Below are positions 11,283-42,003 of a stretch of DNA of 43,423 nt, in pieces. This stretch comes from Fragilaria crotonensis. Its lineage: Eukaryota > Bacillariophyta > Fragilariophyceae > Fragilariales > Fragilariaceae. The stretch spans positions 1 through 43,423 of the forward strand of contig JAKSYS010000534.1 in assembly GCA_022925895.1 (NCBI GenBank), in the 5' to 3' direction. The notes under the pieces are model-generated. The model saw nothing but the letters and a program-made list of their open reading frames with translations. It did not search any database and was not told the DNA's origin. The position numbers and the translations under genes were made by a program. How positions within the stretch are numbered: position 1 is the stretch's first letter; each line of letters begins with the position of its first letter.

Positions 11283-12638
11283 CTAAATGGCATCTTCAAC
11301 GTTGTCTCTTGCACAAACGGCAGGATCTGTCTGAAGATCAACAAGACTGTCAGACGCTAGAAAGACAGGTTCGTTACATCCCAAAACTTGCGGCTCTTGG
11401 CGAGGTGTCGTTCTCGCTTCAGCTGGTGGATTCTTGTAAGTCAAGCACTGCATCAGTGCCCACAACCTTGATCTCGAAGGATTTAGTCGACGCCGTCGCA
11501 GATATCTGGGGCGAAGATAAATGAGAACATTCAGGAATCCCTGCAAAGGGAACGTGATGGCGACCAAGACAGCGAGCCAAAAAATGTCAGATTGTTGCTC
11601 GCGCTGGACAGGAGCTCGCTGCCGAACCCCCATGACAATGAGCCCCATCAAACTTATGAGACACGCCAATACGTATAGAGTCGCTTGTATTGCCACGGCT
11701 CTTGCTTGTTGATGTTCCCGACTTGAGCTCCGCAGAGCAGCAGCATCAGATGCATTCGATTTCTTGTGACAAGGCTGTAGCATCTTGAGGAATTCCCAGG
11801 AACGTTGAGCGAAACCGATTGAGCTCCCAATTTCAGAGTCACTTTGTTGCTCGCCACGACTCCCGGCGATGCTGAAGCTGCTGATGCTGCTGCTGTTGGT
11901 GACACGAGTGCCGTGCTCTTCGTGAGCCGAATTGCTTGCAATACCTACAGCAACATTTGTTGTTGAGGAGAACTTTGTATGACGATATTGTTCTGATTTT
12001 CGTCTCGTTGAGCAAACCTTCCAATAGATCATGCCGTTTGAAACGAGAAGAAATATAATTGACGCCCCAAGAGGAATGCCCCCGAAGATGAAAACGAAAA
12101 TTGGATCCAAACATGGTACCGAGGGATCCTCGCCGCATCCCTTTGGATAGTCTCCAATCCAGCAAATCAGTCCCAATCCTTTCGCAGAATAGAGGGAAAG
12201 GCCAGCTCCAATAGATGCCGTTACGAGAGGAAAGAGGATGGACATGACATGCAGAGACGGTTCCAGATACTTTCGGAATTTCAGCTCGCTGACTCCATAA
12301 ACGACAGTGGCAAGAAAGAAGGCGTTCAATGATATATTGTAGAGTGGGACAGAAGTGCCGAGTTGAGTGAAGAAGCCCATCATGGTGCAAGTTTGATCGT
12401 TCCCATGTGCCGATATTTGTCCCCCTTCAGCCGGCAACAGGAACGGATGAACAAACAAGCAAATTGCATTGAGGATGTCAAACATGGACATGCCAAGCAT
12501 CAATCGATTGTAGACTGACGACTTTTTCGTCATCAACACCAAGTAAACGATTATGCTGGATCCAGCAATGGATAACGAAGATGAGATGCAGGTCAATACG
12601 ACCAAAGCGATCACTTGTCCATCCGTCAAGGGCGCCAT
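11283..12638 (-). CDS. Seven-transmembrane receptor, cAMP-receptor-like, copy 1 (intact)
   Basis: Predicted G-protein-coupled receptor with class E / cAMP-receptor-like features. Counting from a TTG 15 codons upstream, hydrophobic segments lie near residues 23-50, 58-83, 100-125, 143-165, 193-215, 336-358 and 368-392. A conserved Cys starts TM3 (DQTCTMMGFF) and two Cys lie in the extracellular loop before TM5 (CWIGDYPKGCGED). The third intracellular loop is long (about 115 residues), Ser-rich and probably regulatory. TM7 ends FLNVLIYLRPRYL, equivalent to NPxxY. The first ATG of the conserved N-terminus is at 12638 (451 aa). No introns. Ligand unknown. It faces the small gene at 10339, as does its paralogue at 17498. 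Confidence 0.82.
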   Translation of the reverse strand: MAPLTDGQVIALVVLTCISSSLSIAGSSIIVYLVLMTKKSSVYNRLMLGMSMFDILNAICLFVHPFLLPAEGGQISAHGNDQTCTMMGFFTQLGTSVPLYNISLNAFFLATVVYGVSELKFRKYLEPSLHVMSILFPLVTASIGAGLSLYSAKGLGLICWIGDYPKGCGEDPSVPCLDPIFVFIFGGIPLGASIIFLLVSNGMIYWKVCSTRRKSEQYRHTKFSSTTNVAVGIASNSAHEEHGTRVTNSSSISSFSIAGSRGEQQSDSEIGSSIGFAQRSWEFLKMLQPCHKKSNASDAAALRSSSREHQQARAVAIQATLYVLACLISLMGLIVMGVRQRAPVQREQQSDIFWLAVLVAITFPLQGFLNVLIYLRPRYLRRRRLNPSRSRLWALMQCLTYKNPPAEARTTPRQEPQVLGCNEPVFLASDSLVDLQTDPAVCARDNVEDAI

Positions 12639-12958
12639 TGTGCTCAAGGCTCGCGGAGTTTGTGGTATTGTCAGCGTTTGCAACTATGTCATAATACCGG
12701 TAGAATATAAAAGCTTTGAGAAACACAGTTGAATGTGGCGAGTCGCGAGGCCCAGAGTCTGGTGCTATACCACGGGGTCATCGTAAGCTATGGCCTTGAT
12801 GTATGGGCGTGACAAAAGAGTACTATGTCATACCAGACAGGCTACCAGGTACTTATCGTAGTTTGTACTCTGAGTGCTGAGTGTGAATAGTGTCTCTCTA
12901 TGAGGTATTACTAGCATGCATATGGAATCGTAGTACTCCGTGCACCGTATTTCTCTGT

Positions 12959-13032: not shown

Positions 13033-13721
13033 GTACCACATAAAAATGGCTTGGAACCAATAGTTTCACAAGAGTTTTAAATTACTATATCTCCGTAGAA
13101 ACATAAATGTTCAACGAACAGTTCTTATATCATTGATCCTTCATCTGCTTGTCAACAGCAATGAGGAATGATCAAAGTACTGGAGCAAGATCCGAATTGC
13201 CTATCGATGATATACAAGTCTTCGTTTTTCATTTACTGGCTCAAAGTCGTGTATAAATATAAATACATATATATATAATATTTTATATTCCGTTCTTTAT
13301 ATTTTTTCACAAGAGTTTGATGAGTGAATCGTCAATCGAAATTCGTATTGGTACAGGGTTTTGTACGAGCTGTTTGTACCACACAGTGTAGAACGAACGC
13401 CAATTGGAATTCTCTCAAACGTATGAAAATATACAGAACTGTAGCTTGTAGAAATTGGGAGGGCATCCTCGACATGTGAAAAATGGTCGTGCAACAATGT
13501 TTTGACGTCTCATCTACAGTATGCGTTTTTTAGAGAATTGAGCATTTAAAATGCTTTTCTATCAGCAGAACATATCTCTATTGGTTATCTGAGGAGAGCT
13601 TTATAATAGGTCACGGTGTGAAATAATGGAAAATGGATTGTTTTTGTGTAGAGTTCCTTGAATTTCACAAGAGATTGGTTCAAAGCCAATTTATCGGGTC
13701 AAAGCCATTTTTATGTGGTAC
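13033..13721. mobile_element. GTAC-flanked TIR element A (689 bp, non-autonomous)
   Basis: Ends are inverted copies: left GTACCACATAAAAATGGCTT and the reverse complement of 13702-13721 the same. Roughly the first 280 bp and last 220 bp are clearly similar to the ends of element B at 30447-32433, while the transposase-bearing middle of B is absent. It codes for nothing recognisable. GTAC borders both ends, so the target duplication may be GTAC itself, but the palindrome makes the exact boundary ambiguous. Confidence 0.8.
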
Positions 13722-14700: not shown

Positions 14701-15420
14701 GTACCATTTAAAATGGGCTTAGAACCGATAAAATGGCTTAGGACCATTAATGCGTTAATTTTTTTCGTGCCTACACAGAAAGCTCGCAGTTTGTCGAATT
14801 CGACCCGTACTTGTATGCAAAAGTTGCTCGTATACCCATGCCACAGAAGTAAGTGCCTGGGTGCAAAACGGCATCTCAACTTTGTTTCAAAGGGAATTGA
14901 ACTGTCAGATTTGCTGAGAATTACAATGCACCTCGCAAAATTTCAGGCATCAAGTTGGGCCAGCCGTTTGATGATACATCAAAGGGCTCAATTTTTTCTA
15001 CTACACATGCGAAAAAAATATAGCGTCAATATTGATCCTAAACTCACTCATGTCCGTGGATCAAAAAATGCATGGATAGTTTGGTACAAATCTACCACAG
15101 AAGTAGCGTAGCAGTAAAAATTAATCATTCGGCAAATGCGTGAAAAAAATTCCCGCCAACATATAAGTTTTACCTCATGTACGTCTAAAATTGTATGTAT
15201 GGCTTTGAACCAATGCAGCGACAAACAAGTCAATCGAGAATGTGAATGAATCGACAACTATGACGTCCAGTACTTAAATGATTAACTTTTCGTGTGTAAA
15301 AGAAGCAAAAGAAGCTTTCCTAAATGAGCTGAAGAAGATGAAAAGGATGCATTTTGAGAAATATACTGTGAGTCGAAAAATGCGTTAAATTATTGGTTCT
15401 AAGCCCTTTTTAACTGGTAC
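14701..15420. mobile_element. GTAC-flanked TIR element C (720 bp, non-autonomous)
   Basis: Left end GTACCATTTAAAATGGGCTT and the reverse complement of the right end, GTACCAGTTAAAAAGGGCTT, are inverted copies that continue AGAACC(G/A)ATA. The pattern GTACCA..TAAAA.GGCTT..AACC is shared with elements A and B, but the interior differs, so it is a related subfamily. A 138-aa open frame inside (14695-15111) has no recognisable features. Confidence 0.7.
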
Positions 15421-17497: not shown

Positions 17498-18989
17498 TCA
17501 TGCAACATAACAACAAGGGTTGCCATGACGACCGCGCGACCTAGAATCCTCAAATGCAGTAGGCACTGTAGATATTAACCATAAATCATTTTCAGTCCCC
17601 TCATCCCTCCGCGCCTCCAAAGGACGTCGAATTTGTGTGCTGTTCGTTCCCGCTTTGCGCGACTTCCCCAAGATCCCCCCCACAGGGCTCATGACATCTT
17701 CACTATTGTCTCCTGCACAAACGGCAGGGTCTGTCTGAAGGTCAGCAAGACTGTCAGAAGCTAGATTCCCAGGCTCATTACATCCCGGAATTTGCGACTC
17801 TATTCGAAGTGCCATTCTCGCTTCAATGGGCGGAATTTGATTTGTCAAACACTGCCATACTGCACACAGCCTCGATCTTGTAGGAAAGACTCGTCGCCAT
17901 CGCAGATATCTGGGGCGAATATATATTAGAAGGTTCAGGAATCCCTGCAAAGGGACTGTGATGCAGACCAAGACTATGAGCCAATAAATGTCAGATTCGT
18001 GTTCACGTTGGACCCGAGCGCTATCCTGAAGCGCCATGGCCACGATCCCCACCACACTTGTAAGACACGCCGATACGTAAAGAGACGCTTGAATTGCAAC
18101 GGCTCTTTCTTGTTGATATTCTCTACTTGCGCTCCGCAGAGCAGCTCGAGTTGCACAGGATTTCTTTTGAAAAGTCAAGATCGTCCTTAGGAATTCCCAG
18201 GGACGTCGAGCGATAGCCGTTGAGTTCCCACTTTCGCTGCTGCTGTTGGTGAAACTTGTGAACGGCTCTTCGTCTGCCGCATCGTTCACAACAGCTACAA
18301 CAACATTTGTTGTTGCGGACAACTTGGCCTCACGGTATTGTTCTGATTTTCGTCCCGTGGAGCGAACCTTCCAATAGATCATGCCATTTGAAACCAGAAG
18401 AAATATAATTGACGCTCCAAGAGGAATGCCCCCCAAAGATCAAAACGAAAATTGGATCCAAGCATGGTACCGAGGGATCCTCGCCACATCCCTTTGGATA
18501 GTCTCCAATCCAGCAAATCAGTCCCAATTCTTTCTCGGAGTAGAGAGAAAGACCAAGTCCAACAGATGCCGTTACAAGAGGAAAAAGAATGGACATGGCA
18601 TGCAGTGACGGTTCCAGATACTTTTGGAATTTCAGCTCGCTGACTCCATAAACGACGGTGGAAAGAAAGAAGGCGTTCAACGAAATATTGTAGAGAGGGA
18701 CAGTCGGGCAGAGTTGAGTGAAGAAGCCCATCATCGTGCAAGTCTGATCGTTCCCATGTGCTGATATTCGTCCCCCTTCCACCGGCAACAGAAACGGATG
18801 AACAAACATGAAAATCGCATTGAGGATGTCAAACATGGACATGCCAAGCATCATTCGATTGTAGACAGACGACTTTTTCGTCATCAACACCAAGTAAACG
18901 ATTATGCTTGACCCAGCAATGGATAACGAAGATGATATGCAGTTCACCACGACCAAAGCGATCACTTGTCCATCCGTCATGGGCGCCAT
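17498..18989 (-). CDS. Seven-transmembrane receptor, cAMP-receptor-like, copy 2 (1-bp break)
   Basis: Paralogue of 11283-12638, same 7TM layout: TM1 after MAPMTDGQ, Cys at TM3 (DQTCTMMGFF), CWIGDYPKGCGED loop, TM7 FLNLLIYIRPRYL. The third intracellular loop is shorter than in copy 1. A run of six C near 18430 stands where copy 1 has five (GCCCCCCAAAG against GCCCCCGAAG) and splits the frame; one base fewer restores it. The C-terminus runs about 60 residues past the copy-1 stop into sequence that looks non-conserved. ATG at 18989. Confidence 0.75.
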
Positions 18990-19468
18990 TGTGCTCAACG
19001 CTCGAGGACCTTGTGCTATTGTCAGTATGGAAGTATGTGTTGTTTTGTGACACGGTTTACGGCGCAGGGCCCGAAGTCTGTAGGCATAGTCAGAGACTCA
19101 GTCATTGGGAAACGAAACGCACTTTGACGTAAGCATGTGGTTGACTCTAGTACGTACCTATCTACCTACAGTACCGCATTTCTCTGACTTCGTATTCGAT
19201 TTTTACTCATGCACCTCAATTTACTATAGTACCTCCAAAATGTCCGAAGGGGGCAGCGGAAAGAGAAAAAAATTGAGCACTTCCAACTTCCAAAAGAAGA
19301 GAGGAAGCTTTATATAGATCGCTGTGTGTATCTTGATTTAAAAGACATATACTCCGGAGTATACTCAATAGCGACCAGAGGTCGCTTTTGCAAGAGTGCG
19401 CGAAGCGTAACGGTCGCGAACACCTTTAAGTAAAAAAAGGTTGTATGTAACTAGACTTGCGAATGGTG

Positions 19469-19571
19469 TTGCACCCAGATGAGTTGACTACCTGAGAATT
19501 TACATGGTGCATCCTTGATCGGTAAGGATCCCCCACTTAAATTTTGAGGTAGTCAACTTGTCTGGGTGCAA
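19469..19571. repeat. 103-bp inverted-repeat unit (MITE or hairpin)
   Basis: 25-bp arms at 19469-19493 and 19547-19571 (starting TTGCACCCAGATGAGTTGAC) are inverted copies with two mismatches, enclosing 53 bp. It lies in the leader of the plus-strand gene of the 5-kb element. No clear target duplication. Confidence 0.75.
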
Positions 19572-19599
19572 AAGTAGGTTTTAGGCTTCAAGTGGGTAG

Positions 19600-22595
19600 G
19601 TCATAATATTCCGACGAAAATGTCCGGCTCAAAACCTGATAGAGACGTGCAATGAACGTAGAGGTCATTTCAGAATTCTCACGGTTGCAGAGCAAAAAGA
19701 TTTTGTCGTTACCCTCCATCCATGGGACGAGATTACTTCTGAAGTGTGTGATTGTGATCATCTCCCCCACTCGTACCCTCATCCCCAAAAGCCGCTTCTG
19801 GTACCGTTACAATATCTTCAGCAGGCATCGCAAAAAGGGATGGTTCAAACACGATCTGGAAATGTTGTTATTCACACGGAAGCTTCGTATGGACGAGCAG
19901 CGAGGAGCGAATCGTCAAGGAAGCGCCGGAAAAGAAAGGCAGAAAATGATCAGAATGCAGCAAATGCGACAACACCAAGGAGACGGCACCTACAAGATCA
20001 CAAATTCAATATGATGAGGCATTAGCAACTCCTCCCGGTGCATCTGCTAGGGTTGGAAGCACCCCATCGCCCAACAAGACTGATCGAATTCTACGAGGTA
20101 CTACAAGAAAACCACGATGCTCCGACTTTGGAAAGACACGTCACTTTGCATTTCATGGTCAAGGATTCATGTTCTGCAATGCCTGTGATTTGTGGGATGC
20201 TCTCCCACCTGATGCAACCAATAAAGTGTCAATTGATTCGCTCAAGTTTGGTTGCACTGCCAATCATACCTACTTCTCGCATCCGACTACACTCCGGAAA
20301 CAAGACTGTTATATACGACGAAAGAGGAAAGTGGTGATCCCCATACTCAACGTGCAACGCAGGGTTGTACCAAACTATGGTGTTGCCTTCAACGAAGAAT
20401 CGGATTCTTCTTTCGCATCAAGTTTTGATGGTGAGGTTGTTGTAGTTGATCAAGGTAATGGCGGCAGCAGTGCACACCACAATAACAACAATTCTCGCAC
20501 GACGACAACAAGTTCAACCGATGACCCAAGTGACAACGACGACAATCAACCAATCCTTGGAAGCTCAACTACAAATGCGATGCCGATGGATGTGATAGCT
20601 ACTACCACAGCAGGTGTCGGCTCTTCTATCACTGATGTTGAGAGCAGTCTGCTGAATGTACAACAGCATGCACTAGTGGTCGAACAACTTAAAGGTAAGA
20701 TTGCGTTGCTGCAAGAAAGGAATGATCGGCTAGTCAGAGAAGTCAAAGCCCTACAATGCAAAGTAATGAAACATAACGCAACGACAACCGATGAGGGTGC
20801 TACTGTTGGTGCACTTTCCACCAGCAGTCGGAACGAGAGCTTCACGCAACAAGTTCTTGCAGCCTTGAATGGTGTCCTGCAAAAGCATCGACGCTGGAGT
20901 GCAAATCGAGTCGGTGCTTTAGTTGCAAAAGCTGTTTGGAATCATGACACGTATCTTCCACATCTGCTTCGGCATGCTCGCAAACATTTGCGAGAAAAGG
21001 TCTTCACTACTTACAATATCCTACGAGAAATGGATCTCGCTGGAGGCACGCTCTCCTACGAAGGAATCGAAGTGTTGAGACGTGTGGAGACATGCGGTGT
21101 GAAGAGATTCCGAGGCTCAATGATACCATCAAAGTCTGAGCTTAAACGAATGGCTGGAGTTGTCGAATGGATGAAGCAACTATTCCTCCCGAGATGGCAG
21201 GATTTCTACCTTTCTCGTGCATGACCAACTGTGACCTGTCAGCACAGTGGAAGGGTTTGTGCAAAGGTGGTGCGGCAAAGATTCATACACTTCCTTGCAC
21301 TGGGTGTGCAACGGAGTCAGATGAGTTAGCCACTCCAAACCCAGAACTTTGCACAAGATGGTGCATCGAGCATTCCATTGACCCAGATTGGCTTTGTTAT
21401 CACAAGCCTATGGCGACGCCCGAGAGAGTTGTTGCAATGCAGGCTGAAGTTGAGGAACTTGTATCGACACTAGAGAGGGCTCTCATTGAGATTCTTGCCG
21501 AGTCAAAAGTTACTCGCCACGATATTGAACTCGACACTCCACCAGAAAGTTCGGTCAACGACAATGCCTCCATCCACTTTTGCCCCAACAGCGCAAGTCA
21601 GAGGCACTCATTTTCTCGTTTACTAACAAATGAACTGATTCTGCGAGGGCTCGACATCAACGGAAGCTTGGAAATCAGGCGAGAAGGATTAAGAGTTGCT
21701 CTCAAAGGTGAAGCAACGATAGTTAGGCTTTCGAAAGAGATTGCTCATGGGGAGGTTAAGGAAGGAGCCTACTTTCTACTGATGCAGACTCTCCCGTGTG
21801 TGCTTCACATGGAGAATCGAAATGGCATAAAGATTCTCTCGATGCTGCTTGTTGAAGGAATGTCAAATGCAAAAAGCGGCTTATATACAATGATGTCAAG
21901 GCTGAGGGTACGAGTAACTCGTTTCGTTACAGACATGGAAGATATAATCAATCGATCAATATTAGGAACAGACGAAGACCCGTGTCAATGGATGTGCCCA
22001 TTTGATTTCCAGAAAAGGAGCTTGGTCCCATAACCATGGACAATGTTCGAACTCGACGTATCATCGATGCACTTGATCTGATTGTGGATCTTTGTGTGAT
22101 AGATGACGCTCGCAAAGCGCGATGGATGACAGGACTTAACCATTACAGGATTGCTATGGTACTACTAAGAAAGAAGGAGGATTTTACGAATGACATGATT
22201 GCATCGTATCAGAGTCATGCCGACAAATTCTACCAGGCATGGCTTCAGCTTTGGCAAAAGGAGGGTGTAACAAATTATCTTCATATGATGGGGTCCGGTC
22301 ACATCGCTGACTATCTCTACAAGTGGAAGAATCTCTATCGCTTCTCGCAGCAAGGCTGGGAGGCGATGAACTCACTCATCAAGACATTCTTCTTTCGACG
22401 AACTAGTCATGGTGGCGGCGTTCGGGAGCTGGCAACAAGAAGTCTCGGCTTATTCCAATAGCACGATGGTTACAAAGGCGGATGATATTTCTTTGTCGCA
22501 TCGACGAAAGTGTGATCCATCAATACACAGCAGATCATCCTATGCCCGAGGGTTTCTGCACACAAGCATCATCACAAGATGATGTATACGACTAA
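19600..22595 (+). CDS. Mobile-element gene 1, Cys/His-containing long protein, several frame breaks
   Basis: Composite of overlapping frames that together read as one protein. Frame 1 runs from about 19600 (start unresolved; ATG of another frame at 19620) with a basic region; a change near 19990 leads to 20169-21224, with Asn/Thr-rich linker, coiled coil (KGKIALLQERNDRLVREVKALQ) and a helical domain. A change at about 21170 enters 21167-22033, with CTGC...CTRWCIEH...WLCYH, a possible zinc-binding cluster, and a GTDEDPCQWMCP motif. Missing single G bases near 22027 and 22433 restore the C-terminal part: GHIADYLYKWKNLYRFSQQG, FFFRRTSHGGG and IPIARWLQRR, ending at 22595. I recall similar long ORFs with GWEA(M/L)NSL and RRT-HGG motifs as multicopy genes in diatoms and other algae or animals; catalytic function is unknown to me. 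The middle part looks shortened. Confidence 0.55.
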
Positions 22596-22623
22596 CGAGA
22601 AGCACTATACTTCTACCTGAATT

Positions 22624-24045
22624 TTATCTTAGCCTGAATTCAATCAACACCTTTGCAAGTTGTATGTCGAATTGTTTTTCTCGACCAAATAATGCGTTGT
22701 TGTGTTGCGGATAACAACACTTAGCGCAAACGTAAGTAGCATGTATGCTTACCACTCGGTAGAGACATCCGTCGTGATCCTCAAACTCACTCCCGTTCAT
22801 GATAATTCCTTGGTGATGATCCTCCTGCACCACATCCTCGGGATCACAGGGATATGGATTGCAACGATGAATCAATGAAGACAACAGTGGATCACATTCC
22901 TCAGTCGCAACAAGACCTCTTCTTGAAGAATACGTGAATCGCCTGTATCGAATGGTTATGAACAATTCATTACATCCGTCAAATTCCAGATCGATGCCAT
23001 CGCGAACAGTCTTGGAATTAAAGCCAGGTTCGTGGTCATCAGAACCACAGACCACGTTGATGATGTCATTCTGCCACAGGCTTTTAGGTGCTGATATTTT
23101 GGGCAGTCGACATCGCTGCCCTGCAGTTGTTGATTCTCCAAAAACATAACAGAGATGCTGAAGATGAGCCTTTGTCTCGAATCTTAGAATGGTGCAGCGC
23201 TTACTAACTTGAGCAGCTTTAACAACCAACCCACTTTCGATAACTCTATGCCGTCGGGTTCGAGATGAAACTCCACAGCCAGCAGCATCAAAAATGTTGT
23301 CGAACTGTAATCGAAGAAACCCCCATGCCTCGGCGGTGAAATTTGACAAGCGACAGACTTCTTTTCCATAAAGTCCTTGTTGGTGTGAATATCGTCCTAG
23401 TAACCTCGTCATCTCCAGCTTCACACAGATCACGCTATTCCACATCCTACTGGGAAAACAATCATGGTATCGTGAGTTTTGGTAGCTTGATGGAAAAGGA
23501 AGGCAGCAGTTGTCCGGCAGCTTGATTAGAATCGGTTGATCATTTCCGAGGTGGGACCGATACCTTACTACAAACGCGAATGTCATTCCCTGACAAGTGT
23601 AGAAAAGATTGCTGGTATCCTGCAGCGATGCCATGGTAAACACGAATGCCAGGTTCATTATCTCATCACTTGAAATTGTTCGAATCTCTTGTGTCTGCAC
23701 AATTTCGGCTAGATGCCGTAGATGATTTTCATCCAGCAATCTTGGATGCAAAAAGCCTTCTGTCGCTGAAAAGTCATTCAATCGCTTGAATATATTCACT
23801 TGGACTGAAGTTCTGCTTGATGGCAGGCTGGTTTCTGCACCAACAATTCTCGCCACTGTCATACAAGCATCCTGACTTCTGGTTTCAATGCTCGTGTTTC
23901 GTGGTGCCAGTAGCACAAATGTACCTGGCAGAAGATCCGCCTTGAGTGTTCGGCTGTAACATGCCATTGGAACTTCGTTTTGCTCGCAATGGGGCTCAAC
24001 CCTGTCCCAAGAAAAGGAGCCGGCTGGAACTGCTGCGGTGATCAT
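22624..24045 (-). CDS. Mobile-element gene 2, unknown 473-aa protein
   Basis: Uninterrupted ORF ending 28 bp from gene 1 of the same element, on the opposite strand. The N-terminal half is rich in hydrophobic strands (GTFVLLAPR, MTVARIVGAE, VQVNIFKRL) followed by HLRHLAEIVQTQEIRTISSDE; this alternation reminds me weakly of BAH-like reader domains. The C-terminal half has a cluster YVCAKCCYP. No membrane segment or signal peptide. Being intact while gene 1 is broken suggests it is either under selection or lacks homopolymer errors. Function not recognised; a DNA- or chromatin-binding accessory role is a guess from position. Confidence 0.6.
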   Translation of the reverse strand: MITAAVPAGSFSWDRVEPHCEQNEVPMACYSRTLKADLLPGTFVLLAPRNTSIETRSQDACMTVARIVGAETSLPSSRTSVQVNIFKRLNDFSATEGFLHPRLLDENHLRHLAEIVQTQEIRTISSDEIMNLAFVFTMASLQDTSNLFYTCQGMTFAFVVRYRSHLGNDQPILIKLPDNCCLPFPSSYQNSRYHDCFPSRMWNSVICVKLEMTRLLGRYSHQQGLYGKEVCRLSNFTAEAWGFLRLQFDNIFDAAGCGVSSRTRRHRVIESGLVVKAAQVSKRCTILRFETKAHLQHLCYVFGESTTAGQRCRLPKISAPKSLWQNDIINVVCGSDDHEPGFNSKTVRDGIDLEFDGCNELFITIRYRRFTYSSRRGLVATEECDPLLSSLIHRCNPYPCDPEDVVQEDHHQGIIMNGSEFEDHDGCLYRVVSIHATYVCAKCCYPQHNNALFGREKQFDIQLAKVLIEFRLR

Positions 24046-24352
24046 GATGGTGAGTAGCTGACACCTTCGACGTTCTCCTTGTTGGAGGTGAACTCGAGAA
24101 GGGTGCGATGGTCTCTATTATGTAACAGACCAGCACTTCATAAGAAAAGACGTTATCCATCTGAAAGAATTTACTTACGCAAAAACTGTTTACATGACGT
24201 TACAAATAATTCAGATTAAATAGTAAACCAGTAAGAAGTAAGTAAACACGACATCGATAATTATACAGATGCATAAATCAACATAGAGTGCCTAACCTGA
24301 AATGGTCGAGACATCCGGAAAAGTCATGAGGGCCCTTGGTCGCTATTGAGTA

Positions 24353-30069: not shown

Positions 30070-30446
30070 AAGAAGTTCAATACTGCAGTGCAAGATACGA
30101 GTGAGACAAACAGACACAAGCGCAGCAAGGGTTCGCGAAATACATACATTTGCCGAATCATCTCTCTCCGATTATCCAAGTACTCATCACTTTGCCAGTT
30201 TCCGTTCATCGCTGCCGCTGCCGTCATTTTTCCTTTTCAATTAAACTTCCACTTGCAGAGGAAGAACGATCTCTTTGCTGCTCAAATCACTACAGCTGGA
30301 ACAGTGAAAGGACGATGTGTTAGCAAGATAGAACAATGGTCAGATGGGAATGTGTCAGTTTTAGAACAACTCGTTTCCGTCTCCGTTTCGACGTTACGAC
30401 GGGACACAGTCGCGCAACAGTCGATGTCGTGGACTTGATGGACCTG

Positions 30447-32433
30447 GTACCACATAAAAATGGCCTTGAACCGATAATTTCACAAGAGTTTCAACTTACA
30501 ATATCTCGGCAGAAACACGGATCTTGCACAAACAGTTCGGATCATAGACCCTTCATCACATTGTCAACAGGTATGTAGAATGATCAAAGTACTGGAGCAA
30601 GATCCAATTTACCTATCGATGATATTCAAGTCTTCGTTTTTGGTTTATTGGCTCAAAGTTGTGTATAAATTTGTATACGAATAGGGATAATATTTTATCT
30701 TCACTTCTTGATTTTTTTCACAAGACTTCGACCATTAAATCGCGAATCAAAATGCGAATGTTCTTTACTGGTACAGGGTTTTGAACGAGCTGTTTGTACC
30801 ACACGCCTAGAGTACATGAAGACCGTTCTAAGATTCATAACGCTGCCAGACACACGCCGCGTTCTCACTTCATACTCCGGCATTCTAAAAAACATTTCAT
30901 GCAACATATATTCCTAATTCATCTCTTTTACCATTCCTGGTTACTGGTGCTCATCTTGTTCAACAACATCAGCACCAGTATTCACTAGTACCACATGATC
31001 GGGTGGTGGTTCGGGGCGGGCATTTGGAAGTGGAGGTGCAACTTGATCACCGCGATTACAGGTCTCGAGAAGTCTAGCGAGAAGAAGTGATCGCGTCGTT
31101 GGCACTGGTGAGTCATTTGCCCGTTTATACCACATTGCCATTACCTTCAATTGGCTAACGTTCAGTTCTCTGCTAGCTATATTCAGCTCTTTGATTGCAG
31201 CAACCTTCCTTTCAAGAGATCGAAATGCTTGAAGTCGCTTCTCTTGCGCATCACACGCTTTGATTGCCTGTTCCCATTGACGCTGTTTCATATTCTTCAA
31301 GACCGTCGGGCCCAAGCCAAAGCAACTGTCCAGCAGCCAGATGCATGGAGCCCAGCGGTGTATCGTTTTTTTTTCGAATTGATATTTTCCTCCGCTGAAT
31401 CAATCCTTTTCTGCCTGTTTTCCTCCAAGTTCACTCCATTGCGAGCATCTTCACGAATCCTGCTTTCAAGAATTGTATCCATGTATTTCCCCGAGAGGCC
31501 TTGAGATAAATTCAGTTGCACGTCTTGATCAAGAGCAGAAATCACATCGCCGTTTGGAGCGTTGACGCTTCCAGCTTCTTCTGTTGCTGTTGTTCCAATT
31601 GCCTTGTTAGTGCGTGTCTGAAGGATTTCGGGGTGCAGCAAACAATTATAAGTAAGTGGTGTCCAGCCTCGTTCTGCAATCGCGTTTTGATTTTGTTTGA
31701 TGCGAGCAAAGGAGTCATTCCATGCTCTATGAACGAGGTGAATGACATCTTCTTTTTCGATTGCAAGAAATTCTGCTCCAACTGACGCCTTCTGTGCCAG
31801 CAGGTCTCGTTTATGTTTCGTAAGCGCCATCTTGAAGCATCCGTTCTGCTCCGTAGAGTCCCCAACCTGCCAGTAACTGGTACCGTAGGGGACTCCGATG
31901 CATGCTTTCCACATCGTGTCACGGCTGTTTATTTACTCAAGAAATTGAAGATCAAATCGACTTCCGTGACCGTCGAGCAGTAGAAATGGCGTTGCGTTGT
32001 TTGCTTTGATAGTCATGCTGGTCGTGGTGTGAAATTACGAGATATGTGATCGCATATCAGCCGTGCCGACAAGAAATGTGGAATCGGCATGTTTGGTTAC
32101 GGTTATAAAAAATTCCTATATTTCTCGCTTACATAGGAAAATATTCAGAACTACGGTTAATGAAAAGCTGGAGGGCATCCTCGACGTGTGAAAAAGCTTT
32201 CCTCCCCAATATTTTGACGTCTCATCTACTGTAGGCGTATGCGAGAGACTTGAGCAATTCAATTGCTTGTCTATAAGGGGAACATATCTCTATCTGTTAA
32301 CTTAGGAGAGCTCTATAATAGGTCATCGTGTGAAATTATGAAAATTGGAGTGTTTTTGTGTAGGGGTCCTAGAATTTCACAAGAGATTGGTTCAAAGCCA
32401 ATTTATCGGGTCAAAGCCATTTTTATGTGGTAC
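30447..32433. mobile_element. GTAC-flanked TIR element B (1987 bp) with broken transposase
   Basis: Begins GTACCACATAAAAATGGCCT and ends AAGCCATTTTTATGTGGTAC, the same termini as element A. Both ends align with element A; the extra 1.3 kb in the middle holds a DDE transposase pseudogene on the minus strand. This makes B the larger parent type and A its deletion derivative. The first catalytic part of the transposase is missing, so B itself is already defective. Confidence 0.8.
30941..32016 (-). pseudogene. DDE-superfamily transposase, 3' part, nonsense and frameshift
   Basis: From ATG at 32016 the frame reads FLLLDGHGSRFDLQFLE, then a TAA (31935-31933), then INSRDTMWKACIGVPYGTSY, WQVGDSTEQNGCFKMALTK and SFARIKQNQNAIAERGWTPL. 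LLLDGHGS matches the second-Asp motif of DDE_1-type (pogo/jerky-like) endonucleases, and the WQVGDS..QNG block is where that superfamily has its third acidic position; this reading is from memory of similar diatom ORFs. A missing G near 31308 shifts the C-terminal 124 residues into another frame. The N-terminal DNA-binding part and first Asp are not present. Confidence 0.65.
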
Positions 32434-32833
32434 CAGTACCAATCGATCCCATTCGTTGTTCGTGCTTGTAAACAGCGTGTTTTGAATAGATTTCAAAATC
32501 ATATGTTTCAAGCTTTTTTTAAGTCGATATATTAGCATAAAAGGGAAAAATTGATGAAAGTAGTAGCACAGTACAAGGTAGTACCAGGTACAACTGTATT
32601 CCTATTTATAGAGAGAGTGTATCATAAAAAAGGAAAAAAATTGATGAACAATAATCTACTACTAGAGTCCTACAACTGTTCCAGGTACTAGCTACTAGCT
32701 ACCAGGTACTTGGAACTTGGAGTACCTTGTAGCTAGCTATCATACTACTGTACTAGCTAGTAGTAGTACTCATTACCGGTATAGAGTGGGAAAAGAAATC
32801 GATTAAACAAAATGTGCATTATGATACGCTAGT
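32434..32833. other. GTAC/CTAG-rich intergenic patch
   Basis: Between element B and the MITE. 32560-32780 is crowded with GTAC, TAGCTAG and TACTAG palindromes and short mirrored blocks (for example CCAGGTACTAGCTACTAGCT). No gene. Confidence 0.6.
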
Positions 32834-33515
32834 GGAGCAGTTCAGAAAACACAAATACACATTTCTCAACGGCGGTTTAACACACGTAAATTTTCATGTG
32901 GTGTGATCCACATGAAAATTGTGTATTTGTGAATGTGCAAAAGCGTACTTTCAGAAAACATAAACACAAAAAAGAGATTTCTGGCAGGTTTTCATATAAA
33001 TGCTTGTCAGCGGGGGACCATTTCCACGATGACAACGATGCACTTAAACCAAAAAAGTCCGCTCATGTTGTACTTGATGCAGAGGTATAGAAATTGACGA
33101 GAAAGAGTTACAAGAGAATGCATTTTTCTGTATTTATGGGTACAAAACGAGGTTTCATCAGCGACTCGGTGCGTTGTGCAGTAGCACCGTCTCATACGAC
33201 AATGCTGTACTCCGAGACCTTCAGTACTTGTACTGTATCGGAACGCGATTTCAGAACAACGCACTATGTTCGACATGTAGAAATCACCGTAGGCACAAAA
33301 AGTGAAGTTGCACAAAAATGTGTAACGTTACACAAAAATGTCGAACACGAAATCGTGCTCGACAAATTTGTGTAAATGTGCAAGGTTTTTTTGAGCTTAT
33401 AACCCAATTATTAAGAATGGGTTACACATTTTTTTCCGCGCCCACATGCAAAAACGGATGAGATTTGTGTAAACCGGCGTTGAGAAATGTGTATTTGTGT
33501 TTTCTGAACTGCTCC
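32834..33515. mobile_element. 682-bp MITE with long TIRs and 3-bp target duplication
   Basis: Ends start GGAGCAGTTCAGAAAACACA on both sides in inverse orientation, and the inverted match continues for about 40 bp. AGT flanks both ends (32831-32833 and 33516-33518), fitting a 3-bp duplication as in PIF/Harbinger, though its TIR differs from the element at 115. It contains an internal perfect hairpin (AATTTTCATGTGG 32889-32901 with CCACATGAAAATT 32908-32920) and no coding gene. Confidence 0.78.
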
Positions 33516-33598
33516 AGTAGACAACTGCTTGTACCGGTACTTGTACCGGTAGCACTGTATCCATATCTACACATCATACTTGTACCAAAAAGGCGGAC

Positions 33599-35301: not shown

Positions 35302-37542
<2,241 letters not shown>

Positions 37543-39530
37543 ATGAGAATACCAATCCATCTCATCATGGCAACAACAATGGTGACAAGTCCAATTCCTG
37601 CTCGTGACATTACAAACAATATGGAGTCGGGACTGGCGGACCAAGCGTGGGTTGCAACACCACCGAAACCGGACCAAGCGAAACTAACCATCGTGCAGAT
37701 CACAGATGTCTACACATTGGAAAACTTTGCATCCTTAAAGACAATGCTCCAACAAACCAGAAACGAGTCCGGAGACAGCAAGGTCGTATCTGTCTTGACA
37801 GGTGACTTCCTAGCACCATATTTGCTCTCTAGTGTCGATCAAGGATACGGCATGATGAAAGCCCTCGCCCAAACACCCATCGACTACTTGATGTGGGGCA
37901 ATCACGAGGCAGACATTGATCACAAGATCGTTTGTAAGCATGTCAAGAACTTTCCAGGTACATTCATCAATACCAATATGCAAGATCATGATGCGATGAA
38001 GCATCAGGTACCGTTTGAAATCATTGAAGTGCCATCTCCGGACGGTTCTCACTGTCGCAGGGTGGGTCTGATTGCTGTCTTGTCGGATGACCCGGCCTTG
38101 TATCGTCAGTTTGATGCGCCGGGCGCGTTTGGAGGGGCCACGATTCGAAATCCATGGGAAGTGCTGAAAGAGTACAAGGAAATGCTTGAAGGTGCACCTA
38201 CAATTGTGATTTGGTCATTCCGCTGGAGCATTTGTATGTTCCCGATGACCACAGGACCTGTTCCGACTTCGACTTTCCGATCGTCTTGTCCGGTCATGAT
38301 CATCACCGAATCGACGAGACAGTGGACGGGACACGTTTGATCAAGCCTGGATGTGATGCTGAGTATGCTGCTGTCGTGGAGGTATGTTGGGACGGACAAG
38401 AATCAAGCAAGCCAACAATTACCTCTCGCTTCGTCAAGCCCAGTGATTGGGAACCATGCCCCGTGATGCAAGAATCAACAACGCGCGCCTACGATGCTCT
38501 GTTGCCGCTCCGAATGACAGAACTCGCACGCATTCCAAAAGACTTTGAACCACTCTCGTCGTCCAATTCGCGAGGCAGCGTCACGACGATGGGTACGTTT
38601 ATTTGCAGTCTATTGCGTTCTTCGTTGAACGTTAAGCGTGGACGGCATCGGTCAGACTTTGTGGATGCTGTGATTCTCATGGGTGGCAATATTCGGGGAA
38701 ATACAGATTACCCTGAAGGAAGCTACTTCTCGCTTGAAGCTCTCGAGGCAGAAATCGAGTCTGGTGAAGAAATAGGTGTGGTGGACATGCCAGGGTGGGT
38801 GCTTGCCAAGGGCATCCAAGAGACCCACGCAGGTGATCCTGTTCCTGGTTGGCTACAATACGACGGAGACATCAAGGAGTTATATCCGAGTGGTGAGGAT
38901 GGGCCTTCCATTATTGCTGAGGTTGCTGGACTGCCGTTTGATCCTACCCGAATGTATCGTGTTGCCACAAAGATTGGTGATTTGACAAATGGTCAGTCAA
39001 AGACATTCACGGAATACTACACAAAAAATCCCAAACTTCTGCCTGCTGAAGGGAGCTTCGTTAATATTTCGGTTGAGCTAATGGGATACTTCGCTCGCAA
39101 TTTGTGGAGAAAGATATGGGAGTCACTCGAGCCAACAATGCTCATTGAACCCCAACTTGATTCGGATTACAGCTATTACCGTGAGCGATTTGCAGATCTA
39201 GACTACGATCAAGATGGATTGATTAGTGTCGACGATATTCATGCAGCGTTTCGACACGTCCTTGGACTCAACGTCCACTGCGATGAAATGACACTTGCCG
39301 AATCTGTCCACGCCTATGCAGACGTGAACAGTGACGGTAGGGTTACTGTTGAAGATTTGGAGTTGTTCAGCATCGAGCTTCCTGCTTTGTACGAGAAGGA
39401 TCGATGGCGTCTTGCGTACGCGAAGAATGACAAACATCGCCTGACAAATCCTGCTGGTGCCTCATCACCCCGTTCCGTGGCATTCGCCCGCGAACCTGTT
39501 GCCTTTCACTTCAAGTTTCCATCCCTGTGA
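37543..39530 (+). CDS. 5'-nucleotidase-type metallophosphoesterase with EF-hands, copy 1 (1-bp break)
   Basis: Tandem paralogue of 40021-42003 with the same domain order: metallophosphoesterase (VQITDVYTLENF, GDFLAPYLL, WGNHEAD, LSGHDHH), 5'-nucleotidase C-terminal domain (MGGNIRGNTDYPEGSYFSLE), then two EF-hand loops (DYDQDGLISVDD and DVNSDGRVTVED). The frame is broken near 38198: GCACCTACAATT stands where copy 2 has GCTCCTTACAATT; one T restores it. All motifs lie outside the break. Corrected length is about 662 aa. Starts with MRIPIHLIMATTMV, a weak signal-like N-terminus. Confidence 0.8.
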
Positions 39531-40020
39531 AAGATGGGTTTTTTAATTTTGAATAAACGTTCATTTGCAATTGGTGTGCGTGATGCAGATAGTGGGCACG
39601 AAACAATTTACAAACTCAACTCACAACCAAGAATAGATCTTCCATGTACAAAAAAACACATAACGCGAAACAAGCTAAACAGTAGCCTTTCCTGATGTTC
39701 CCCGCCTACATAAATTGATTATCCTCTATTCATTTGGGGTACGTTGCACTGTATGGAAAGATGATAGATTGCTTTACGACATTGGTCGAAGGTAATCTAT
39801 GGACGCGGCAGCCTGTATAACATTCCTACCTGTATAACATTCCTACTGGTACTCAGAACCATATTAACGTGTTTTAACAGCCACAATTGATCTTGTGCAC
39901 AACTGTATCGTCACGATGGCCACAAGTCCTTCCACTTAAAATTTCAGTCACAGAAAGTCACAGAAAGCAAAGATCAGTACTCACAAGTCACAAGATTGAC
40001 TCATCAACCTCACAAAACCA

Positions 40021-42003
40021 ATGAAAATACCAATCCATCTCATCATGGCGACAACAATGGTGACAAATCCTATTCCTGCTCGTGACATTACAAACAACAT
40101 AGAGTCGGGACTGGCGGACCAAGCGTGGGTTGCAACACCACCAAAACCGGACCAAGCCAAGCTAACCATCGTACAGATCACAGATGTCTACACATTGGAA
40201 AACTTTGCATCCCTAAAGACGATGCTCCAACAAACCAGGAACAAATCAGGAGACAGCAAGGTCGTTTCTGTCTTGACAGGCGACTTCCTAGCACCATATT
40301 TGCTCTCCAGTGTCGATCAAGGATACGGCATGATGAAAGCACTCGCCCAAACTCCCATCGACTACTTGATGTGGGGCAATCACGAGGCAGACATTGATCA
40401 CAAGATCGTTTGTAAGCATGTCAAGAACTTTCCAGGTACATTCATCAATACCAATATGCAAGATCATGATGCGATGAAGCACCAGGTACCGTTTGAAATC
40501 ATTGAAGTGCCATCTCCAGATGGTTCTCACTGTCGCAGGGTGGGTCTGATTGCTGTCTTGTCGGATGACCCTGCCTTGTATCGTCAGTTTGATGCGCCGG
40601 GCGCGTTTGGAGGGGCCACGATTCGAAATCCATGGGAAGTGCTGAAGGAATATAAGGAAATGCTCGAAGGTGCTCCTTACAATTGTGATTTGGTCATTCC
40701 GCTGGAGCATGTATATGTTCCCGAGGACCATATTACGTGCTCCGACTTCGACTTCCCAATCGTCTTGTCCGGTCATGATCATCATAGAGTCGATGAGACC
40801 GTGGACGGTACACGTTTGATCAAGCCTGGATGTGATGCTGAGTATGCTGCTGTCGTGGAGGTATGTTGGGATGGACAAGAATCAAGCAAACCAACAGTGA
40901 CGTCTCGCTTCGTCAAGGCAACCGATTGGGAACCATGTCCGATTCTATTAGAGGTCAACATACGTGCCTATGATCCCTTGGTGTCACTCCGAATGACAGA
41001 ACTCGCTCGTGTTCCAAAAGTCTTTGAGCCACTTTCCTCCCACAATTCCCGCAGTGGCGTCACCAGCATGGGAACATTTATTTGCAGTCTCCTGCGGTCT
41101 TCGATGAATGCCAAGCGCGGGCGCCGCCGTTCTGACTTTGTGGATTCGGTGATTCTCATGGGTGGCAACCTTCGGGGAAATACAGACTACCCTGAAGGAA
41201 GCTACTTCTCACTTGAAGCTCTCGAGGCAGAAATCGAGTCTGGTGAAGAAATAGGTGTGGTGGACATGCCAGGGTGGGTGCTTGCCAAGGGCATCCAAGA
41301 GACCCACGCAGGTGATCCTGTTCCTGGTTGGCTTCAATACGACGGAGATATCAAGGAGGAATATCCGCAAGGTGAGGATGGGCCTTCCATTATTTCCGAG
41401 GTTGCTGGAAATCCCTTCGATCCAACCCGAACGTACCGTATTGCCACTAAGATCGGTGATTTGACGAATGGCCAGTCGACGGCTTTCACGGAATACTACA
41501 CAGCCAATCCGAAACTCTTACCTGCTGAAGGGAGTTTCATCAACATATCAGTTGAGCTAATGGGATACTTCGCTCGCAATCTGTGGAGGAAAATTTGGGA
41601 GTCGCTGGAGCCATCAATGCTAGTCGAACCCGGACTTGATTCCGATTACACCTATTTCCGTGAAAGGTTCGCAGACCTCGATAATAATCAAGATGGATTT
41701 ATTAGTGTCGATGATATTCATGCCGCGCTTCGCGACGTTCTTGGGCTCAACGTCCACTGCGATGAAATGACGCTTGCCGAATCTGTCCACGCCTATGCAG
41801 ACGTCAACAACGACGGCGACGTTACTGTGGATGATTTGGAGTTGTTCAGCAAGGAGCTTCCTGGTATATACGAGAGAGATCGATGGCGTCTTGCATACGC
41901 AAAAAATGATGCCCATCGTCTGATTCATCTTGCTTCTGTTGCTGCGTCGCCTCGCACCGTGGCATTGAATGGCGAATCTGTGGCAGTCACTCAACTTCCA
42001 TAA
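40021..42003 (+). CDS. 5'-nucleotidase-type metallophosphoesterase with EF-hands, copy 2 (intact)
   Basis: 660 aa. Predicted to hydrolyse nucleotides or related phosphate esters. Metal and active-site motifs: TDVY (54-57), GDF (87-89), GNHE (119-122), GHDHH (251-255). The usual first motif D-x-H is D-V-Y here, in both copies, so one metal ligand may be changed or supplied elsewhere. The C-terminal 5'-nucleotidase domain carries MGGNLRGNTDYPEGSYFSLE. Two canonical EF-hand loops (554-565 DNNQDGFISVDD, 594-605 DVNNDGDVTVDD) suggest calcium control. The gene lies 490 bp after copy 1; the start and first codons of the two copies are nearly identical. N-terminus weakly hydrophobic; secretion uncertain. 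Confidence 0.88.
   Translation: MKIPIHLIMATTMVTNPIPARDITNNIESGLADQAWVATPPKPDQAKLTIVQITDVYTLENFASLKTMLQQTRNKSGDSKVVSVLTGDFLAPYLLSSVDQGYGMMKALAQTPIDYLMWGNHEADIDHKIVCKHVKNFPGTFINTNMQDHDAMKHQVPFEIIEVPSPDGSHCRRVGLIAVLSDDPALYRQFDAPGAFGGATIRNPWEVLKEYKEMLEGAPYNCDLVIPLEHVYVPEDHITCSDFDFPIVLSGHDHHRVDETVDGTRLIKPGCDAEYAAVVEVCWDGQESSKPTVTSRFVKATDWEPCPILLEVNIRAYDPLVSLRMTELARVPKVFEPLSSHNSRSGVTSMGTFICSLLRSSMNAKRGRRRSDFVDSVILMGGNLRGNTDYPEGSYFSLEALEAEIESGEEIGVVDMPGWVLAKGIQETHAGDPVPGWLQYDGDIKEEYPQGEDGPSIISEVAGNPFDPTRTYRIATKIGDLTNGQSTAFTEYYTANPKLLPAEGSFINISVELMGYFARNLWRKIWESLEPSMLVEPGLDSDYTYFRERFADLDNNQDGFISVDDIHAALRDVLGLNVHCDEMTLAESVHAYADVNNDGDVTVDDLELFSKELPGIYERDRWRLAYAKNDAHRLIHLASVAASPRTVALNGESVAVTQLP

Follow-up and report, generated by a model that had tools for sequence, protein, structure and literature searches.

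The window analysed here, a stretch of 43,423 nucleotides of DNA from the diatom Fragilaria crotonensis, contains at 19366-24348 a DNA transposon with two genes, in a damaged copy, of a kind that has recently spread in the genome. Insertion of this element duplicates a single target base, which may be of any identity. The best reading is that it represents a new lineage of cut-and-paste transposon. We consider it highly probable that the element is a DNA transposon of the cut-and-paste type with a 1-bp target-site duplication (TSD), in which gene 1 would encode a DDE transposase and gene 2 an accessory protein. On the claim that it constitutes a lineage at the level of a superfamily, so far seen only in F. 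crotonensis, with a DDE transposase that acts with a one-nucleotide stagger at any base and depends on a second, convergent protein of an undescribed family, our judgment is evenly poised.

Element boundaries

The sequence-only reading had taken as the ends of the element a perfect 16-bp inverted pair, 19362-19377 and 24337-24352. The pair is indeed exact, and when up to three mismatches are allowed the 16-bp end has four matches in the window, including two exact ones, where shuffled sequence would give 0.15. The boundary was drawn 4 bp too wide on each side. What the window copy has in common with other copies is limited to the inner 12 bp, CAATAGCGACCA; the outer TACT and AGTA are absent from these copies and are therefore flanking DNA. 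The 16-bp end was rejected for this reason, and the true end is the 12-bp sequence. The perfect extension of the repeat to 16 bp in the window copy is most simply a matter of chance in the flanks. The features of the window copy are as follows.

19362-19365, no strand: flank TACT, absent from other copies
19366-19377, plus strand: left terminal inverted repeat, CAATAGCGACCA; other copies have the same end and different flanks
19469-19571, no strand: 103-bp subterminal inverted repeat with 48-nt arms (83%), present in other family-1 copies
19840-22595, plus strand: gene 1, probable transposase, broken in the window copy; the C38 copy has a homologous open frame
21170-21171, no strand: junction of a 382-bp deletion in gene 1, found in the window copy only among the five aligned
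21233-21235, plus strand: second candidate catalytic Asp, D673, in the motif CMTNCD; invariant in six of six gene-1 proteins
21812-21814, plus strand: candidate catalytic Glu, E866, in the motif HMENRNGIK; invariant in six of six
22624-24045, minus strand: gene 2, an intact open frame of 473 amino acids convergent to gene 1, with homologues in other copies
24337-24348, minus strand: right terminal inverted repeat, the exact inverted partner of the left; the same end is found in other copies
24349-24352, no strand: flank AGTA, outside the element by copy comparison

Genome-wide, CAATAGCGACCA has 88 exact matches compared with 12 for the reversed pattern, and a second end pattern has 62 compared with none for its control. 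The first two positions of the ends are C in 51 of 52 and A in 52 of 52 cases in family 1, and C and A in 30 of 30 each in family 2, counts that are partly circular, since most of these ends were selected by the CA itself. That the element stops at its CA..TG ends follows from the empty sites described below, which show the boundary. The 103-bp repeat just inside the left end also occurs in diverged family-1 copies; a hairpin with a regulatory role and a nested insertion of some age are two possible readings of it.

Copies, derivatives and a second family

The 62-Mb assembly (881 contigs) was searched for other end pairs and for empty sites, and both were found. Near-identical copies of the window element, assigned to family 1, are present at five other loci (C58, C274, C38, C29 and C35). 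Their DNA identity is 98-100% by matched piece, except for the left-end piece of C29 (86%). Outside indels, the C58, C274, C38 and C35 copies are 99.84-99.96% identical to the window copy when aligned with it, and C58 and C38 have no substitutions over 5362 aligned bases. At all six loci, the window included, the ends are the same and the flanks unrelated, and for some loci an unfilled site exists; the proposal that the two genes belong to a mobile system has thus been borne out. A block of other DNA, about 4.9 kb long, interrupts the C29 copy (about 59216-64092) near its left end.

Open frames of each gene are present in copies elsewhere in the genome. The short indels that distinguish the window copy from C38 are located in homopolymer or dinucleotide runs, so that errors of assembly may account for some of the frame breaks they cause in gene 1. 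The 382-bp deletion (21170/21171) is a change of another kind.

Protein searches also revealed diverged family-1 copies and a second family, whose gene 1 is 35-38% identical to that of family 1 and whose ends are CACTASAGACCATTCGG. The two families have an identical two-gene layout and related ends (CAATAGCGACCA and CACTASAGACCA), with most of the first 12 bases in common. Internally deleted copies keep their ends, and derivatives of 105-494 bp, the size of miniature inverted-repeat elements (MITEs), retain little besides.

Target-site duplication

In 40 of 47 copies with paired ends, the base to the left of the element is the same as the base to the right. Ends that had no partner, whether exact or near, were dropped before this count, as were C728, with ends 15.7 kb apart, and C613, with three ends; C35, C722 and C120 were kept despite at least one imperfect end. 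Removal of six haplotype duplicates, judged by their flanks, left 41 unique copies, of which 34 have identical flanking bases (binomial p about 1e-14). When the right-hand bases were shuffled the mean was 10.5 matches and the maximum 23, and none of 100,000 shuffles reached 34. Identity never extends to two bases (0/41). The duplicated base is C or T or A in nine copies each and G in seven, and identity is seen in 23/26 copies of family 1 and 11/15 of family 2. The seven exceptions are the window copy, flanked by T on the left and A on the right, together with C35, C33, C764, C461, C489 and C853.

The duplication is established by the empty sites, because these lack one base that the filled sites have. 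The joined flanks of 24 loci (6 + 18) were used in the search, and an unfilled counterpart was found for eight, seven of them clear. In all seven (C38, C274, C58, C34, C87 and the MITEs at C131 and C72) the filled allele is exactly one base longer. The counterpart of C58 has further small indels a few bases from the site; that of C29 (C151) differs further at the site itself and was excluded from the seven. The C274, C87 and C72 insertions lie in repeats of which several copies are unfilled, and this speaks against excision as the source of the empty form. For the other 16 of the 24 loci no empty site was found; in the search with 18 loci, 40 of 163 candidates were scored and repeats filled the list, so that these negatives are no counter-evidence. 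A search of the genome with the flanks of the window copy likewise found no empty site.

Among the exceptions, C461 has a homologous unfilled sequence that shows no net duplication. Loss of one C beside a C would explain this, and single copies such as this one may have a TSD of 0. The family-2 element concerned, C461:41046-42562, lies within about 100 bp of sequence homologous to the site of the family-1 insertion at C38.

Gene 1

The two convergent genes recognized earlier between the inverted ends are present as described, gene 2 intact and gene 1 opposed to it and broken in the window. In the C38 copy gene 1 is a single open frame of 1127 codons. Its start was set at the Met at residue 81 of the open frame, which is common to the C1 relative, and the C38 protein probably begins there. 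In the window the gene is broken both by short indels and by the 382-bp deletion, which takes out the first candidate catalytic Asp, D576 (numbered in the C38 frame, P0001).

At its N terminus the gene-1 protein has a Cys/His stretch; coiled-coil models match weakly in its middle, and its C-terminal half is conserved. Judged from its sequence, it is probably a DDE transposase with the triad D576-D673-E866 and a zinc-binding insert. D576 (DGA), D673 (D..xQW), E866 (LHxEN) and E1050 (GWEAxN) are invariant in six of six aligned proteins, as are C694, C697, C716, C727 and H729, which include C(2)C and CxH motifs. H729 and H864 are the only His residues from D673 to E866 that are invariant. E1050, in GWEAMN, is an alternative third catalytic residue, and two invariant Glu therefore compete for this role. 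The sequence LHLENR in gene 1 resembles the motif MHIEKN of plant CACTA transposases.

Gene 1 is under purifying selection, with pN/pS between copies of 0.27-0.61 and synonymous differences mostly near saturation. Against PDB profiles it gave seven weak matches, the best with an E value of 0.0097 and none of them a transposase. Pfam gave no convincing match and none to Transposase_21, and a genome-wide profile search for Transposase_21, run without a positive control, had zero matches. A SAP-like stretch in gene 1 is an impression only.

Gene 2 and its pairing with gene 1

Gene 2 is matched over residues 1-473 by the C29 and C274 copies at about 100% (100 and 99.8%). It too is under purifying selection (pN/pS 0.29-0.70, synonymous differences again mostly near saturation). 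Profile searches found no recognized domain, with zero matches to PDB profiles, and a structure model from the single sequence was unusable (mean pLDDT 30.5). The suggestion of a BAH domain is an impression only.

The genes do not, as a rule, occur far apart. In protein searches gene 2 lies convergently downstream of gene 1 at 32 of the 34 gene-1 loci among the matches listed, which do not include the C16 copy; the loci without a listed gene 2 are C475, at a contig end, and C15. Gene 2 is found at at least 11 more places without gene 1 among the matches listed (C76, C38 at 81-83 kb, C290, C219, C603, C566, C113, C728 at 9.8 kb, C291, C859 and C23). At C76 and C38 (80-83 kb) the copies are 2.9 kb long and have both ends but no gene 1 among the matches listed, as expected from internal deletion. 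Pieces of gene-1 DNA were detected at C290, C113, C291 and C859.

The sequence-only reading could place neither gene in a named family, and this still holds: there was no convincing match for either in Pfam, PDB, NCBIfam or PHROGs. Weak Pfam matches (Lipoprotein_6, a WRKY19 finger, NinF and others), one weak NCBIfam match and one PHROG of unassigned function (E 0.026) were set aside. No relatives of gene 1 or gene 2 were found in IMG/VR, a viral collection that says little on other eukaryotes, nor of gene 1 in GTDB or of family-2 gene 1 in a tblastn search of phages, collections of prokaryotes and viruses with little bearing on eukaryotes. In the open-access PMC literature, searches for a 1-bp TSD or one-base duplication gave no paper on a transposon family among those listed; one LINE-1 preprint matched. 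For a new superfamily in diatoms the match listed was a plant review.

Proposed mechanism

How many target bases are duplicated reflects how far apart the two active sites sit on the DNA. In the mechanism proposed here, the gene-1 transposase would bind the ends of the element and cut it out of the donor. The 3' ends of the transposon would then be joined to the two target strands with a stagger of one nucleotide, and host repair would fill the one-base gap to leave one duplicated base. The gene-2 product would bind DNA or chromatin in an accessory role on which transposition or targeting depends. Cut-and-paste is preferred to copy-out by analogy with the class to which the element would belong. 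The duplication itself is demonstrated by the empty sites; the action of gene 1, excision and the help of gene 2 are steps that we infer. The window copy would be a young one; with part of gene 1 gone, its movement would require help in trans.

A strict 1-bp duplication would fix an unusual geometry of strand transfer, and it offers a target for structural work. The paired genes, with short derivatives that have the same ends, would form a testable transposon system in a diatom, and they mark a group that protein-family annotation would miss.

Comparison with known transposon groups

The DNA transposons compared here have TSDs of 0, 2 or more bp. The nearest comparison is with the CMCT clade (CACTA/EnSpm), whose members are described as having TSDs of 2-5 bp, the motifs C(2)C and H(3-4)H and, for the most part, CA..TG ends (PMC12730594, 2025). 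It is a real possibility, rated a little below even, that the element belongs to this clade, its TSD having shrunk to 1 bp, and forms no separate superfamily. Like CMCT elements, it has 5'-CA..TG-3' ends, family 2 literally beginning with CACTA; it has a C(2)C (C694, C697) after the second Asp, D673, which with E866 is a predicted catalytic residue; and its deleted derivatives retain their ends. A change in TSD length has a precedent in hAT, of which lineages with 5, 6 and 7 bp are described (PMC12730594). In contrast, the 1-bp TSD falls outside the 2-5 bp range given there, a CxH takes the place of the H(3-4)H pair, no invariant H(3-4)H being found between D673 and E866, and there is no match to Transposase_21. 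The second, convergent gene has no recognized domain, and gene 1 has no Pfam match. The element plausibly works like CMCT elements, to which it may be deeply related; it is not filed in the clade because of its TSD and the missing H(3-4)H.

In the KDZ group, TSDs are 8 bp in Zisupton and Dileera and 7 bp in Kyakuja, two families of which have CA..TG ends without inverted repeats (PMC12730594). The present element shares with these eukaryotic DNA transposons the CA..TG ends and differs from them in its TSD of 1 rather than 7-8 bp and in having no Pfam match. TSDs in the PHIS group (PIF/Harbinger, ISL2EU, Spy) include very short ones of 0, 2 or 3 bp, and two genes are present in the Nuwa families of this group (PMC12730594). 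A very short duplication and two genes, as in Nuwa, are points of likeness, whereas the duplication here is of 1 bp and of any base, and there is no match to a transposase, Myb/SANT or other Pfam domain.

Alternative explanations

A site-specific recombinase, either a Crypton-like tyrosine recombinase or something similar, might insert a circular form through a short common core. Recombinases of this type leave an identical short sequence at both junctions, and a shared flanking base is what such an enzyme would give. We think this very unlikely. The common base differs among near-identical copies (C in C58, T in C274, G in C38 and C29), and it is present once in the empty site and twice in the filled one. 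No match to a recombinase family was found for the genes in Pfam, NCBIfam or PHROGs, and Crypton-type elements are not known to have inverted ends such as these.

It is still less probable that the element inserts without target duplication and that the common base is due to chance or to an artefact of how the ends were drawn. The seven of 41 copies without identity, and C461 with no net duplication, are what this explanation has in its favor. Against it are the 34 matches where shuffling gave 10.5, and the one extra base at every clear empty-site locus. Had bases of the inverted ends been mistaken for flanks, they would be complementary, and only 3 of the 41 unique copies have complementary flanking bases. 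As a general rule this explanation is refuted; it may hold for single copies.

That genes 1 and 2 belong to the host and came to lie between inverted repeats by accident, in keeping with the lack of a Pfam transposase domain in either, has a negligible probability and is refuted by their repeated association, convergent at 32 of the 34 gene-1 loci among the matches listed and in the same layout, with a related end, in two families at 35-38% gene-1 identity.

Other observations in the window and the genome

Searches of the window for tRNAs and for Rfam families gave no match. Two open frames that resemble each other and look like receptors lie at 11286-12683 and 17501-19097, the second of them broken near the left end of the transposon; there is a Git3 GPCR match at 18330-18998. 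Three related inverted-repeat pairs each contain GTACCA followed by an A/T-rich stretch (13033-13721, 14701-15420 and 30439-32441), and they look like the ends of another, non-autonomous family of DNA elements. At 32829-33520, inverted arms of 51 nt (96%) 590 bp apart mark a candidate short DNA element. The neighboring open frames 37405-39527 and 40000-42000 have in common a stretch near the start, M[KR]IPIHLIMATTMV, and may have arisen by tandem duplication of a gene. Elsewhere in the genome, the Pfam silicon-transporter family has 19 matches, 18 of them above the curated cut-off, and at C97:29749-33762 a single open frame, 1456 codons long, contains three silicon-transporter domains.
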